DNA of 64,000 nt from Leucothrix pacifica (lineage in GTDB: Bacteria > Pseudomonadota > Gammaproteobacteria > Thiotrichales > Thiotrichaceae). The notes under the pieces were generated by a model. It ran no database searches, was not told where the DNA came from, and saw only the letters and a list, made by a program, of their open reading frames with translations. The position numbers and the translations under genes are program-made. The stretch spans positions 124,001 to 188,000 of the forward strand of contig NZ_QGKM01000013.1 of the NCBI RefSeq assembly GCF_003172875.1. The letters are read 5' to 3'. This document shows positions 2,243-8,323 of the stretch, one piece after another (the stretch's first letter is position 1; the number at the start of each line of letters is the position of its first letter).

Positions 2243-4075
2243 GTGAAATCAATTATTTCCAAGCTTGTACGATGTCTACTGCCAAGCCTTCTGCTGATTA
2301 GTTCAGTCCAGACTGCGATGGCTGCCTCCCCATTAGCTGAGCAAGCCTCCCCATACTTACGAGCACACGCTAAAGATGCCGTTCAATGGCGCCCTTTTGG
2401 CACAGCAGCCTTCGCTGAAGCAAAAGCTAAGGATAAAGCAATATTATTATCCAGTGGTTATTTATCTTGTTACTGGTGCCATCGCATGTCTGAAGATAGC
2501 TTCAGGAAAAACGCAGTTGGCCAACTGATTAATCAACAGTTTATCCCTATTTTACTGGACCGTGAACTAGAGCCGGAAGTGGATGATTATCTGCAAAAAT
2601 TCATGACTCAGCAACGCGGTTTCGGCGGCTGGCCACTGACCGTAATGCTCACTCCTGACGCAAAACCGATTGCCGGATTCAGTTATCAAGCGGCCGATGA
2701 ATTTATTAACACCATCAACAGCTTTTCAGAGAACTGGCAACGACAGCGTCAAAATATCGAAGCAAGTGCTGCGACCAAATCAAAACAACTAATATCGCCA
2801 TCAACGTCAAAAGCCAACGCTACGACGCTTGATAAACAGAGTTTATTAAATAACTTCTTGGAACAGAGCCAACGCATCGCTGACAATGACTATGGGGGTT
2901 TTGGACAAACTGAAAAATTTCCCTTTGCGCCACAATTGGCAACCTTACTTTATCTGGATCGGTTGAAACAAACCCCACAAGTCGAGCTTCGTAACTTTTT
3001 AATGATTACATTGCAAGCCATGATGGGCGGTGGTTTACGGGATCATGTGGGCGGTGGCTTCTTCAGATACTCGGATAATCGTCAATGGTCAGCGCCGCAC
3101 TTTGAACAAATGCTTTACACGCAGGCGCTAATGGCTCCTCTGCTTTTGCAAGCCGGTGAGCAGTGGAAAAACGGTGCTTTCACCGAAGCTGGCAGCGAGG
3201 TATTACTAGGTATGATTAATCACTTCCAGCGACCTGACGGCTTATTTCGTACAGCACTTTCTGCCGTCAGTGAAAAGGGGCAAGCAGGTGGATACTATCT
3301 ATGGACAGAATCTAATTTAAAAAAGCTGCTTGGTCGTGATTATTCCAATATCTATGCACTGGATACCGGCACGCCTAAGCAATATCTGCCACTGATTCAG
3401 GTAAGTGGCTTGCAGCGGATGAGTATTCGGCAACGCTTATTGAATGAGCGACAGAAGCGCCAGATGAAATACGACGATAAGGCGCTGCTGGGCTGGAATG
3501 GACTCGCGCTATCTGCACTGGCGAGAGGTAGCCAGTTGCATCCGTCTATTTATGATGCAGGGGCACGTTTATATCAGCAGCTTGAGCCACTGTTAGCAAT
3601 GAAGACATTACCTCGTCTGATTGATACCAAACAGGCAGGGCCGGCCCAATTCACGGATCAGGTTTATTTTGCTCACGGACTCTATCAATGGGGGGCGGCC
3701 AGCAAAAATCAATCACTCATCAGTCAATCCGGTCGTTTGCTTCTGACACTTTATGAGAATTATTACCAAAATGGCTACTGGCAAGCAGCAAGCGATAAAC
3801 CACTGATTGGGGAACAACTGAGTCGGGCGTTAGTTGACACCGAACTTCCCTCAGCCAGTGGGCTATGGCTCAAGACCTCCAGTCAATTACTGAACGACTC
3901 AGTTCATAACGATAGTAGTGAAAAACAAACGATAGCGCTTCAGCAAGCCTTAAAAACCATTAGCAAGCAACTCCCCGACACACTTGTTGATGATGCCTTT
4001 TTTCACGGCACCAGCCTCAGCGCCCTGCTTTATATCGCCACTCAGAACCATGCCGCAAAGGAGTCAGACCATTGA
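2243..4075 (+). CDS. Exported thioredoxin-fold (DUF255/YyaL-like) protein with six-hairpin domain
   Basis: The 610-residue product starts with a signal peptide (basic KSIISKLVR, hydrophobic LLPSLLLISSV, AMA cleavage near 27), so it should act in the periplasm. Residues about 30-150 match the DUF255 thioredoxin-like domain: SPYLRAHAKDAVQW, the redox-type CYWC (Cys76, Cys79) followed by His80, a LDREL turn and GGWPLTVMLTPD. The rest resembles the alpha/alpha six-hairpin part of YyaL-type proteins (KFPFAPQLATLLYL, GGGLRDHVGGGFFRYS, PHFEQMLYTQALM, DDKALLGWNGLALSALARG). YyaL relatives are usually near 680 residues and cytosolic, so the signal peptide and shorter length are notable. The start is a GTG; GAGGAA lies 15 bases upstream and would suit an out-of-frame ATG at 2230 better. 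The stop overlaps the TTG start of the next gene, so co-translation with the ExbB-like gene is likely. Redox activity is inferred; the sugar-epimerase label often used for this fold is unproven. Confidence 0.85.
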   Translation: MKSIISKLVRCLLPSLLLISSVQTAMAASPLAEQASPYLRAHAKDAVQWRPFGTAAFAEAKAKDKAILLSSGYLSCYWCHRMSEDSFRKNAVGQLINQQFIPILLDRELEPEVDDYLQKFMTQQRGFGGWPLTVMLTPDAKPIAGFSYQAADEFINTINSFSENWQRQRQNIEASAATKSKQLISPSTSKANATTLDKQSLLNNFLEQSQRIADNDYGGFGQTEKFPFAPQLATLLYLDRLKQTPQVELRNFLMITLQAMMGGGLRDHVGGGFFRYSDNRQWSAPHFEQMLYTQALMAPLLLQAGEQWKNGAFTEAGSEVLLGMINHFQRPDGLFRTALSAVSEKGQAGGYYLWTESNLKKLLGRDYSNIYALDTGTPKQYLPLIQVSGLQRMSIRQRLLNERQKRQMKYDDKALLGWNGLALSALARGSQLHPSIYDAGARLYQQLEPLLAMKTLPRLIDTKQAGPAQFTDQVYFAHGLYQWGAASKNQSLISQSGRLLLTLYENYYQNGYWQAASDKPLIGEQLSRALVDTELPSASGLWLKTSSQLLNDSVHNDSSEKQTIALQQALKTISKQLPDTLVDDAFFHGTSLSALLYIATQNHAAKESDH

Positions 4076-4848
4076 TTATCGCACCACATAACAAATGCGG
4101 AAGAATAGATAGTTACCGCCCCTTATATGGCTGGCTAGTGTTATTTGGTTTGATGCTATTCGGTGGCTTTTTGCTGTGGTGGCATGAGCTGTGGCAACCC
4201 GTATTAACGCAGGATAAAACTTATCTGTCCGGTGTCATTATCATATTATTCATACTCGTAACCCTGTACTTAGGACGCTGCACCTGGCAATTAACCCAGC
4301 AATCCTTACTGGCTGAAGACTTAATCAACGCACCGCACACTAACGAAAATACTCAACAACACAATAGTGGCACCAGCACGCAAAAAACGGAACATAGCTC
4401 TTTAAACACTCAAGGCTGGGCCTCGGAGTACCTTCACCTATTACAACAAAGTCAGCAGCAAACTGACAAAGGACAAAACCTTACTGAGTCTTTACAGGCC
4501 AGATTAGTGGAGCAAGTTTATGGCCCACATAGCTCAGGCTGGTTTCTGTCAGACCTATTACTACGTCTTGGATTGATGGGTACAGTGATTGGCTTTGTAC
4601 TAATGCTTGGCTCCGTGGTCAATCTGCAGGATGAAGGAATCAATGCCCTCAAACAGCTAATGACCAGTATGAGTAGCGGTATGCAAGTAGCGCTTCTCAC
4701 CACACTCACGGGACTCGGCTCTGCCATGCTGATTAGTCTGCAATGTCAATGGCTGGACCGCTGCGCCGATCAACTAGTCAGCCGGATTATTGAAATCAGT
4801 ACGTTCAATGTTTCATCAACCAATGGCCACCATACGGAGAGTCATTGA
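4072..4848 (+). CDS. MotA/TolQ/ExbB-like channel subunit
   Basis: A 258-residue inner-membrane protein with four predicted helices (about 20-38, 53-70, 161-184, 201-224). The last pair carries the MotA/TolQ/ExbB signature: LRLGLMGTVIGFVLMLGSV followed by GMQVALLTTLTGLGSAML. Residues 85-160 form a polar Gln/Thr/Ser-rich cytoplasmic stretch. Members of this family build five-subunit ion channels around a two-helix core of an ExbD/MotB partner and turn proton flow into mechanical work in the envelope. The partner here is almost certainly the next gene, which overlaps by one base. The TTG start at 4072 overlaps the previous stop and has AAAGGAG at 4057-4063. The specific process energised is unknown; it is not next to tonB, tolA or flagellar genes. 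Confidence 0.82.
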   Translation: MIIAPHNKCGRIDSYRPLYGWLVLFGLMLFGGFLLWWHELWQPVLTQDKTYLSGVIIILFILVTLYLGRCTWQLTQQSLLAEDLINAPHTNENTQQHNSGTSTQKTEHSSLNTQGWASEYLHLLQQSQQQTDKGQNLTESLQARLVEQVYGPHSSGWFLSDLLLRLGLMGTVIGFVLMLGSVVNLQDEGINALKQLMTSMSSGMQVALLTTLTGLGSAMLISLQCQWLDRCADQLVSRIIEISTFNVSSTNGHHTESH

Positions 4849-5513
4849 TGGCTGGCCTCTACCAACGCCAGCGCAACAACCAACGCACAGACCCGTTTAT
4901 TGATTTGTTATTCAACACCCTGCTCGGGTTTAGCTTTTTATTTCTGATCAGTCTGGTGTTTATCAACCCCGACGAGGATCAGGCCAAGGTGGACAAACAA
5001 GCCGAATACGTTATCACCATTAGCTGGGACAAAACACTGGCCGATGATATTGACCTGTGGGTGTATGCGCCAAGTGGTCATACCGTTTCCTATCTGCAAA
5101 AAGAAGCGGGTTGGCTGCATTTAGACCGAGATGACCGCGGTGAAGTGAATGATAAATTGCTGATTGACGGTCGTGAGGTAGTCCATGCAGTCAATGAGGA
5201 AGTAGTCACTATTCGTAACCGACTTGCCGGTGAGTACATTGTTAATGTGTACTTTTACGCAGCCGATAGCAAAAAGCGCCCACCCCGAAAAATACCAGTC
5301 AAATTGAAAATCGACCGCATAAACCCACGCTTTGAAACAGTGTACGTTGATCAGGTGGAGCTGACCGCGCAGGACCAGGAGCTAACCGCAGTGCGTTTTA
5401 CACTTGATGATGAGGGCAAAGCCGGTCAGTTCAATAAACTCCCCAAACAGCTCACACCCTATGGCTTGGACCACATGCCTGAACAGATACCGGATGACTT
5501 ATGGACCAAATAA
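4848..5513 (+). CDS. ExbD/MotB-like single-helix protein with beta-rich periplasmic domain
   Basis: A 221-residue protein with one N-terminal helix (about 19-39) opening with an acidic residue, DPFIDLLFNTLLGFSF. Asp15 or Asp19 sits where ExbD, TolR and MotB keep the aspartate that carries protons. After the helix comes a soluble domain with ISWDKTLADDIDLWVYAPSG (about 58-77) and later GEYIVNVYFYAA. It reads like the DUF2135/YfaP-type beta-sandwich, in which a W...DIDLWV..PSG motif is usual. No OmpA-like peptidoglycan-binding domain is present. ATG 4848 is preferred over the TTG at 4845 because CGGAGAG at 4835-4841 is well placed; it overlaps the upstream stop by one base. Pairing with the ExbB-like protein is inferred from order and topology. 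The domain match is by eye and moderately sure. Confidence 0.75.
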   Translation: MAGLYQRQRNNQRTDPFIDLLFNTLLGFSFLFLISLVFINPDEDQAKVDKQAEYVITISWDKTLADDIDLWVYAPSGHTVSYLQKEAGWLHLDRDDRGEVNDKLLIDGREVVHAVNEEVVTIRNRLAGEYIVNVYFYAADSKKRPPRKIPVKLKIDRINPRFETVYVDQVELTAQDQELTAVRFTLDDEGKAGQFNKLPKQLTPYGLDHMPEQIPDDLWTK

Positions 5514-5992
5514 ACGCCAGCCTGCCACTTGTGTTCGCCTACGTGTTACCGCTGTGTTTATTGGTCTGGCTATGGCTATCGGTAAACATTAAATCTCGTA
5601 CCAAACTGTTGTTAACGCTTTGCTTACCCGTGATCTATGCAGTACATTGGTATGGTTTACAGAGCTTACGCGGTTGGCCTGCCAATCAATCATTACCAAA
5701 TCAATTTGAATTGATTGCTGCCGATGTGGTCGAACCCGAAGCTAGTCAGAATCGCGATGGCAAAATCCACTTATGGATTCGACAAAAAAGCAATGGCGAG
5801 CCCCGTGTGTATGGTCTGCCCTACACTCGCCAATTACATAAAATACTATTTGAAACCAAGCAACGCATGGAAGCAGGCCAAACTCAAATGGGAAGACTCT
5901 ACGATGCCAGCAGTAATCGCGGCGCCGCAATTGGTAACAACCAAAAACTGGAATTCCAGAATGCGACACGCGCGATGCTGCCGCCTAAATAG
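5501..5992 (+). CDS. Small membrane protein of the ExbB/ExbD-like cluster, function unknown
   Basis: I do not recognise this 163-residue protein. It has two hydrophobic N-terminal segments (about 8-27 and 34-52, the second ending VIYAVHWYGLQSL), then a polar region with VDVVEP-like acidic and KIHLWIRQK strands and a basic C-terminus. The translation starts inside the last codons of the ExbD-like gene (13-bp overlap), so the two are very probably translated together. It may be a third component of the same membrane complex, with the C-terminal 110 residues on one side of the inner membrane. The 112 bp after its stop contain no clear terminator, so the ferritin-like gene at 6105 may belong to the same transcript. 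Confidence 0.7.
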   Translation: MDQINASLPLVFAYVLPLCLLVWLWLSVNIKSRTKLLLTLCLPVIYAVHWYGLQSLRGWPANQSLPNQFELIAADVVEPEASQNRDGKIHLWIRQKSNGEPRVYGLPYTRQLHKILFETKQRMEAGQTQMGRLYDASSNRGAAIGNNQKLEFQNATRAMLPPK

Positions 5993-6104: not shown

Positions 6105-7220
6105 ATGAACCAACGTCAGTTTAAGCTAATTTTACGAAACGCCGTTCTCGCCGCAATCCCCCTATCCGCTCAAAGCGGCTGCATGACTGCTGCTGACTCC
6201 GTCAAAAAAGACGATGAGCCAATCAAAATAGACAATCCCTGCCGCACCGGTGAATCTACCCGCAAGTCCGCAACGGAGGCTTACAGCGCGCAAATTGACT
6301 TAGTCAAAGAGCCGATAAGTGCTCAGCAATGTATTGCATTGTGTCAGGAAGCGTTTCAAAAGAATCGAATTGGCGGGCAAACTGATTTTGCAAAGTTGGA
6401 AAAAATTCAGGCCAGTGACTGTTCAACCAAAACACAACCGTTTACCAGTCGCCCCTTCCGCGCTCCTCCACTTGCCGAACCATCAACATTGGTCTCTTGC
6501 CAGATCGAATACACCGCGATTCATTCGCCTTACACTTGCCCCAAAGTGGTTCCGGGAAGAATGCCAAATGGTATACAGATCAATGACCGCAACGATACAA
6601 CCCAAAGCAGTATCGCAAGCTATCTGGCGAATATGGCGGCGATGGAAACAGCCGCAATAACAGCCTTTGAATATTTGGTGCGTGAACTCACTGCTTACGG
6701 CGCGCCAGAAACGCTGATTGCTCAAGCTCAACAAGCTGTTGATGAAGAAAAGCGCCATGCTGAAATGGCAGGATTGCTGGCAGCAGCTCATGAAGCAACG
6801 GTGCCTGCGGTTCAGATCGATGACTTTATGTTGCGCTCCATGTATGAAATTGCACTGGAAAATGCGATCGAAGGCTGTGTGAATGAGACTTTCGCAGCGG
6901 CCTGTGGTATCTGGCAAAGTGAGTATGCGCAGATGCCTGTGTTTAAAAAGATCATCGGTTATATCACTGATGAGGAAATAAGCCATGCAGCATTATCATG
7001 GGAAATCCATCACTGGTTAATGCCTCAGTTAACACCCATGCAACAACAAGCTATTAGCAAAGCACAAATCAAGGCAGTAGATGAGTTGATGACGAGCTTC
7101 AGGCAAAAAGGTGATCCGGCACAGCAGTCTGCATTTGGCCTACCTGATGAGGCTAGTGCATCAGTGATTTTATCTCAGCTCCAGCAGAGCACCTGGCGAG
7201 ACATCCCGTCAGTTCATTAA
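6105..7220 (+). CDS. Exported ferritin-like diiron protein
   Basis: The 371-residue product has a basic, hydrophobic N-terminus (residues 1-25) ending in QSGC at Cys26. This looks like an export signal, although the residue at -3 is Gln, so it is not a standard lipobox. Residues about 30-150 form a Cys-containing region ending CPKVVPGRMPNG. Residues 165-310 form a four-helix ferritin-like bundle with two ExxH metal motifs: Glu181 or Glu189, Glu215/His218 (EKRH), Glu256 or Glu261, and Glu291/His294 (EISH). That ligand set fits a carboxylate-bridged diiron site. Similar secreted ferritin-like proteins with a GRxPxG segment exist, but their role is not established to my knowledge. The RBS is TTGGAGCG before ATG 6105. 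It may be co-transcribed with the ExbB/ExbD-like cluster; a terminator follows at 7249. Confidence 0.8.
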   Translation: MNQRQFKLILRNAVLAAIPLSAQSGCMTAADSVKKDDEPIKIDNPCRTGESTRKSATEAYSAQIDLVKEPISAQQCIALCQEAFQKNRIGGQTDFAKLEKIQASDCSTKTQPFTSRPFRAPPLAEPSTLVSCQIEYTAIHSPYTCPKVVPGRMPNGIQINDRNDTTQSSIASYLANMAAMETAAITAFEYLVRELTAYGAPETLIAQAQQAVDEEKRHAEMAGLLAAAHEATVPAVQIDDFMLRSMYEIALENAIEGCVNETFAAACGIWQSEYAQMPVFKKIIGYITDEEISHAALSWEIHHWLMPQLTPMQQQAISKAQIKAVDELMTSFRQKGDPAQQSAFGLPDEASASVILSQLQQSTWRDIPSVH

Positions 7221-7309: not shown

Positions 7310-8323
7310 ATGGATACGCAGCTCACGACTCTTTCCAGCTTCATCATCGACGAACAACGCAGACTCGGAAAACAAGCCAGCGGTGAATTCACCGGCTTAC
7401 TAAACGATATCAGCATTGCCTGTAAGAGCATCGCCTCATTGGTCAATAAAGGTGCGTTAGCGGGGGTTTTGGGTGTAGCAGGCAGTGAAAATGCCATGGG
7501 TGATGCGCAGAAAAAGATGGATCTGATCGCGAATGATTTGTTTATCAACGCGCTGCAGCATAACGGTCACTGTGCCGGAATGGCTTCAGAGGAGCTGGAC
7601 GAGATATTAACGCTACCGGAAGGCAAAATTCGGGGGAGCTATCTGGTTACGTTTGACCCGTTGGATGGCTCATCCAATATGGATATCAATATCGACGTTG
7701 GCGCGATCTTCTCAATCCTGAAAGCACCGGCCAGTGGTGAAGATCCGACGGCAGAAGACTTTGCACGTCCTGGTGTTGAGCAAATCGCAGCAGGTTATTG
7801 CTTATACGGCCCTTCCAGCATGTTTGTACTCACCACAGGTAATGGTGTCAATGGTTTCACTTTAGATACCAGTATCGGTGAATTTATCCTGACCCACCCT
7901 GATATGAAAGTGCCAGAAACGACTAACGAGTTTGCCATCAATGCTTCCAACCAGCGTCACTGGGAACCGGCGGTCCAGCAATATATTGCGGACTGTCAGG
8001 CCGGGGAAACAGGCACATTGGGCAAAAATTATAATATGCGCTGGGTAGCAGCCATGGTCGGTGAGATTCACCGAATTTTATGCCGGGGCGGTGTATTTCT
8101 TTACCCAATTGATGAGCGCAATCGCGAAGCTGGCGGTAAGTTACGTTTATTGTATGAAGGAAACCCAATGGCGATGATTGTTGAGCAAGCAGGTGGTTTA
8201 GCCAGCACAGGTTATCAACGTATTATGGAAGTCATGCCCAATGGCGATCCCCATCAACGCGTTGCGGTCATCATGGGATCAAAGCAGGAAGTAGAAACAA
8301 TTCTGAAGTATCACGAAGCTTAA
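7310..8323 (+). CDS. fbp: Fructose-1,6-bisphosphatase class I
   Basis: Removes the 1-phosphate of fructose 1,6-bisphosphate in gluconeogenesis (and in the Calvin cycle where present). The 337-residue protein has the class I metal and substrate motifs: an early KMDLIANDLF, ASEELDE, VTFDPLDGSSNMDINIDVG with the metal-binding DPLDGSS, and the C-terminal GGKLRLLYEGNPMAMIVEQAGG. The length is normal for class I enzymes. ATG 7310 is preceded by AGGA. The gene is single, flanked by terminators on both sides, and no cbb genes are visible nearby, so a carbon-fixation role cannot be inferred from context. Confidence 0.97.
   Translation: MDTQLTTLSSFIIDEQRRLGKQASGEFTGLLNDISIACKSIASLVNKGALAGVLGVAGSENAMGDAQKKMDLIANDLFINALQHNGHCAGMASEELDEILTLPEGKIRGSYLVTFDPLDGSSNMDINIDVGAIFSILKAPASGEDPTAEDFARPGVEQIAAGYCLYGPSSMFVLTTGNGVNGFTLDTSIGEFILTHPDMKVPETTNEFAINASNQRHWEPAVQQYIADCQAGETGTLGKNYNMRWVAAMVGEIHRILCRGGVFLYPIDERNREAGGKLRLLYEGNPMAMIVEQAGGLASTGYQRIMEVMPNGDPHQRVAVIMGSKQEVETILKYHEA

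Follow-up and report, generated by a model that had tools for sequence, protein, structure and literature searches.

Ion-driven engines of the ExbBD/MotAB kind drive nutrient uptake, division, swimming, gliding and phage defence. In the window analysed here (the whole 64,000-nucleotide stretch of Leucothrix pacifica DNA), a gene pair resembling such an engine is flanked by genes for a thioredoxin-fold protein and a two-helix membrane protein. Which of these genes form a unit, and what could such a motor drive? Four successive ORFs on the + strand, overlapping by 4, 4 and 13 bases, are involved:

2243..4075, + strand: DUF255/DsbH-like thioredoxin-fold protein, putatively secreted; 610 aa, GTG start, CxxC motif CYWC (PF03190, E 1e-44)
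4072..4848, + strand: A subunit, ExbB/MotA-like; 258 aa, TTG start within the TTGA overlap (PF01618, E 3e-8)
4845..5513, + strand: B subunit, ExbD-like; 222 aa, one transmembrane (TM) helix with a DPFID motif and a predicted DUF2135-like beta domain (AlphaFold2 model, TM alignment)
5501..5992, + strand: third subunit with two predicted TM helices; 163 aa, beta domain, C-terminal LPxK tail, no known family (AlphaFold2 model)

The ORF calls agree with the coordinates and overlaps given in an earlier sequence-only reading, and its single transcription unit is supported. The B subunit could start at TTG 4845 or ATG 4848; GGAGAG precedes the latter, which is the likelier start. By inspection, the N-terminus of the DUF255 protein resembles a signal peptide. 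Neither the B subunit nor the two-helix protein has a significant match in Pfam or NCBIfam.

Gene neighbourhoods identify the conserved unit as genes two to four (A, B and two-helix; hereafter the trio), the DUF255 gene being lineage-specific. The trio occurs in order at 70 of the 76 proteobacterial loci sampled and the complete four-gene order at nine, the final counts taking in all ORFs with profile hits. Exceptions to the trio order include L030, which stops at a contig edge, and L130, which holds a DUF2135 protein only. The 76 loci are related by descent and the 70 are not independent events; since they span many families, a chance origin of the trio is excluded. The earlier view that all four genes are one functional unit holds within one clade only: elsewhere the DUF255 gene is exchangeable, and the co-occurrence of all four in order, proposed as a check, is a minority arrangement. 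The fourth gene encodes a constant third subunit rather than an accessory.

B-subunit relatives were recovered by protein search in 15 of 57 close relatives and 40 of 369 Gammaproteobacteria, and by profile search in 14 of 299 genomes across the phylum, some of them outside Gammaproteobacteria; within the order they are present in 22 of 63 genomes. The trio is found in about one in ten of the Gammaproteobacteria genomes sampled and in some Alphaproteobacteria. Relatives that are 82% identical come from two uncultured Leucothrix MAGs. L. pacifica itself carries a second copy (L040, 45% identical, contig C133, about 12.9-15.0 kb), which belongs to a gene cluster for PQQ-dependent alcohol dehydrogenase; an SsuABC-like transporter precedes it and a DUF3108-like lipoprotein follows. 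Two more trios lie on replicon NZ_CP012915.1 (plasmid ABSP7_p1) of Azospirillum brasilense Sp7 (L214:6055-7995 and L215:5183-7024); the plasmid record annotates no genes at these two sites.

Between the window trio and the next conserved gene lies a ferritin-like protein (6105-7220), with weak matches to the RNR small chain and to encapsulin-ferritin. It was considered as a fifth member and rejected: the nearest relatives, L031 and L032, skip from the two-helix gene to a 336-337 aa gene, which matches the window's next gene (7310-8323) by size and place.

The A subunit matches MotA_ExbB (PF01618) with 33.8 bits against a cut-off of 22.9. Its four hydrophobic segments are predicted to form four TM helices in the manner of MotA, with GLxGTVxG in the third and GMxxALxTTLxG in the fourth. 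Residues G167, G170, G174, T210 and T211 are invariant in all 42 relatives and T171 is kept in 41; by motif position, T171 and T211 presumably correspond to ExbB T148 and T181. In a profile search of the PDB the closest solved chain was MotA (8gqy, E 0.013). In a quick tree, some branches of which are long, trio A subunits and 29 canonical ExbB/TolQ proteins formed separate groups (SH-aLRT 88 and 90). Three canonical ExbB/ExbD pairs sit on other contigs of the 146-contig L. pacifica assembly that was searched, and the locus is, as had been stated, separate from the canonical Ton/Tol genes. Given the tree and these pairs, an ordinary ExbB/TolQ paralogue with a partner outside the cluster, which the sequence-only reading had named as fatal to its proposal, is rejected.

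In the AlphaFold2 model of the B subunit (pLDDT 84.6) a TM helix (residues 17-40) is followed by an all-beta domain. When the B subunit is aligned with ExbD/TolR, its motif DPF[IT]DLLFN falls in register with PLID (hhalign E 0.003, a single-pair comparison), so D20 is the likely ion-binding aspartate; this residue of the PF[IT]D motif is likely to be equivalent to ExbD Asp25, and is kept as aspartate in 43 of 47 relatives. Taken with the PF01618 match of its neighbour, the alignment upholds the earlier recognition of an ExbB/ExbD-class pair, and on sequence grounds the membership of A and B in the ExbBD/MotAB superfamily, with ion-path residues kept, is well supported.

The head of the B subunit is another matter. 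Neither the window protein nor the families reported for the 47 relatives include PF02472 (ExbD), and the PF02472 genes of this genome are located elsewhere; no OmpA-like domain was matched in the window protein or the 47 relatives, and neither the B subunit nor the two-helix protein showed a peptidoglycan-binding domain. When B subunits were compared with PF09906 (DUF2135), the window protein gave no match and seven of 47 relatives matched weakly, with E values down to 8.6e-4. Run on whole genomes, the B-family profile picked out one TPR-DUF2135 and one VIT-DUF2135 protein (E 1.5e-4 and 4e-9), both confirmed as PF09906. These proteins share a DIDLWVxxP...GxYxVxxxYY beta domain with the B head, although there the domain ends a long protein and has no ExbD-type TM anchor. 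The predicted periplasmic head of B is a DUF2135-like beta domain, which would replace the usual ExbD/TolR or OmpA-like head. Foldseek searches of the PDB with the B-subunit and two-helix models returned no significant match for either.

One subclade (L094, L096, L100, L101 and L102) has alanine in place of D20, with B motifs such as DPITAVLFK. The trio is kept in these genomes, as are the A-subunit threonines in the members aligned, and two tandem two-helix genes are present at all five loci. Either D16 substitutes for D20 in these motors or conduction has been lost.

The AlphaFold2 model of the two-helix protein (pLDDT 88.7) has a beta domain besides its two TM helices. Among 45 family members, hydropathy detected both helices in 32; in these the loop joining the helices is basic, unlike the N-terminus (mean K+R 1.8 against 0.03), a charge pattern that suggests a periplasmic beta domain. 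Of the 45 proteins, 39 have a short C-terminal P-x-K tail, which is commonly LPEK or LPPK. No relative in the PDB was found by sequence, and searches of Pfam and NCBIfam together with the model revealed no TonB domain, no periplasm-spanning linker and no known domain.

How does the trio compare with motors already described? It resembles ExbBD/TolQR in having an A subunit of PF01618, two helices of which carry GLxGTVxG and ALxTTLxG, a single-TM B subunit with a PFID aspartate, and overlapping A and B genes, but differs in the extra N-terminal helix of the A subunit, which brings the TM count to four, and in a B head that is apparently DUF2135-like rather than of the ExbD/TolR fold. The four-helix A subunit is shared with MotAB/PomAB, as the closeness to MotA 8gqy by sequence also indicates; in contrast to those stators, the trio is much smaller, has no OmpA-like peptidoglycan-binding domain in B and has no flagellar neighbours. 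AglRQS and GldLM offer precedents for ion-driven A/B motors refitted by an altered B head, their own B subunits and partners being unrelated to those of the trio as far as is known from the single source compared (PMC9389320). As the trio lacks the features that define TonB/Tol, MotAB and Zorya systems, it is taken to be a new variant within the motor superfamily.

Among MotAB homologues, the accessible text of a survey from 2025 recognises a "generic ion transporter" group, which it calls plastic, and lists DUF3450 and DUF2341 as A-subunit additions; that text makes no mention of a DUF2135-like B head or of a constant third subunit (PMC12505986). No paper pairing DUF2135 with ExbD was found in a search to which subscription journals were mostly closed, and this counts as weak evidence. 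DUF255 and ExbB came together in one E. coli CpxR-regulon paper, whose available text holds each term once. The arrangement, called unfamiliar in the sequence-only reading, was not found in the literature searched, nor does that literature assign the trio a function.

If the trio is a motor, its partners may indicate its work. A quick B-subunit tree sorts gene contexts by clade far better than shuffled labels do. In the window clade the gene directly upstream encodes a DUF255 protein (nine loci) or a secreted rhodanese (five loci). Clade II, the largest context class, has a YkuD L,D-transpeptidase and a DUF302 protein upstream and a VWA-FHA protein downstream; the genes beside these trios we take, from their sequences, to be TilS-AccA. 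Trios of a third clade lie in gene clusters for PQQ-dependent alcohol dehydrogenase and are followed by a DUF3108-like lipoprotein; upstream are PQQ_CXXCW rhodanese, SoxH-like, SoxYZ-like and MoxJ-like genes (L042 and L043) or an SsuABC-like transporter (L040, L041, L092 and L140). At many trio loci no partner is recognisable. Two-cysteine motifs occur in three of the upstream partners: CYWC in DUF255, CNGMWC in the rhodanese and CVADCW in the PQQ_CXXCW rhodanese. For the SoxYZ-like, SoxH-like and rhodanese proteins of PQQ clusters, a review has proposed, as a hypothesis, disulfide maturation or redox control of the dehydrogenases, or PQQ protection (PMC12997753).

The DUF255 proteins near trios form a specialised set. 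In a tree of 34 sequences, eight of the nine linked proteins form a clade (SH-aLRT 100) that includes none of the 25 unlinked ones. Members of this clade carry CYWC[HY] followed by R or K (motif covered in seven of the eight) in place of the usual C[HY]WCHVM, and this altered motif together with the separate clade marks them as specialised partners. The window protein, which has PF03190 (Thioredox_DsbH) and the CYWC active-site motif, scores well below the cut-off of the equivalog for the disulfide reductase DsbH (NF043050, 26.3 bits against 190). The ninth linked protein (L078) is of the ordinary type and appears to have joined a trio independently. No trio lies within the 1.5 kb flanks of any of the 25 unlinked genes. 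One plain DUF255 gene (L155/L206) is divergent beside a different, A-B-B motor set (L206:5590-7876), which is taken as chance. A similar set occurs in the window genome (L211:4273-8043, contig C141), where an A subunit of 347 aa and two different single-helix B-like proteins follow a D-Ala-D-Ala carboxypeptidase (S13).

The explanation we favour, at about even chances of being right, is that the trio is a new family of ion-driven envelope motors of the ExbBD/MotAB kind that has a DUF255 partner in this Leucothrix genome and there works on thiol or sulfur-carrier proteins. Members of the superfamily are built as a pentamer around a dimer and are driven by H+ or Na+ (PMC9389320). By analogy, five A subunits would surround a B dimer in a 5:2 assembly. 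D20 of B would relay H+ or Na+ past the conserved A-subunit threonines while the B dimer turns, as a rotary motor would, or switches. The motion would pass to the DUF2135-like periplasmic head rather than to a TonB/TolR or peptidoglycan-binding head, where the periplasmic domain and LPxK tail of the two-helix protein could meet it. The head may then act on the two-helix protein and a clade-specific partner, or by way of them, with the core as a power unit to which various periplasmic partners are attached. In this genome the partner would be the secreted DUF255 protein, presumably in physical contact, and the work would most likely be done on periplasmic thiol/disulfide or sulfur-carrier proteins. 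That the trio may serve periplasmic thiol chemistry here is suggested by the three partner types with two-cysteine motifs together with the SoxYZ-like, SoxH-like and rhodanese genes of the PQQ clusters. Several observations count against this explanation: the largest partner class (L,D-transpeptidase, DUF302 and VWA-FHA) is not obviously concerned with thiol redox, many loci show no recognisable partner, one subclade has lost D20 yet retains the trio, and the Foldseek searches gave no significant PDB match for either of the new subunits.

The poor fit of the L,D-transpeptidase context to thiol chemistry makes a role in the cell wall a serious rival. The trio would then be an ion motor for the cell wall or outer envelope, as Tol-Pal is, with DUF255 and the rhodaneses as one lineage's accessory quality control, a possibility that we regard as real if doubtful. 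It would account for the transpeptidase upstream and the VWA-FHA protein downstream in the largest context class, and for the presence of the core in most genomes without a DUF255 neighbour; it sits less easily with a B subunit and a two-helix protein in which no peptidoglycan-binding domain was detected, and with two other clades whose partners are thiol or sulfur-transfer proteins. A more specific form of the thiol reading is rather unlikely as it stands: in it, thioredoxin-like, rhodanese and SoxYZ-like carriers would be gated or recycled mechanically by an H+- or Na+-driven 5:2 motor, which would thereby power periplasmic thiol/disulfide or sulfur-relay reactions.

Could the trio instead be an extra TonB-type energiser of transport across the outer membrane, in which the two-helix protein stands in for TonB? 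The homology of A and B to ExbB and ExbD and a third subunit that probably extends into the periplasm would agree with this. The third gene, however, encodes a two-TM protein without the linker or domain of TonB, no TonB or TolA partner gene was found, the loci examined showed no recognisable receptor gene and canonical ExbBD pairs are present elsewhere in the genome, all of which makes such a role improbable. We give equally little credence to a regulated ion channel or envelope-stress sensor that produces no force. A sensor would suit the many clade II loci that have genes for a histidine kinase and a response regulator nearby, and the D20-less subclade suggests that ion flow is dispensable; against this, nearly all relatives retain D20 and the two threonines, and the kinase genes are on the opposite strand and absent at the window locus.

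A Zorya-like antiphage system, to which the trio is linked by distant A-subunit similarity (PADLOC best match ZorA1, 35 bits), is already largely refuted and barely credible, as the trio lacks the long tail of ZorA, the OmpA domain of ZorB, any nuclease partner and ZorC/D/E, and its partners are periplasmic metabolic proteins. The positive control for this rejection was a true Zorya II elsewhere in the genome, a complete-looking system (L212:5782-8776, contig C2) made up of ZorA2, at 519 bits, with ZorB2 and ZorE2 adjoining; a further A/B motor pair of the genome, with a B-like protein of 436 aa, is weakly similar to ZorA/ZorB (L213:5606-7899, contig C67).

The trio is apparently an undescribed, widely conserved relative of the MotAB/ExbBD motors. 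It is a conserved version of the motor in which the periplasmic head differs and a third subunit is constant, and its changing partners offer a natural experiment in adapting a single motor to different tasks. The two copies in A. brasilense Sp7, a soil bacterium grown in the laboratory, make the trio tractable. Its link with PQQ-dehydrogenase clusters and with proteins of thiol chemistry and sulfur transfer provides a specific, testable hypothesis; if true, a motor that powers thiol chemistry would put the ExbBD/MotAB engine to a use that the literature searched does not describe.
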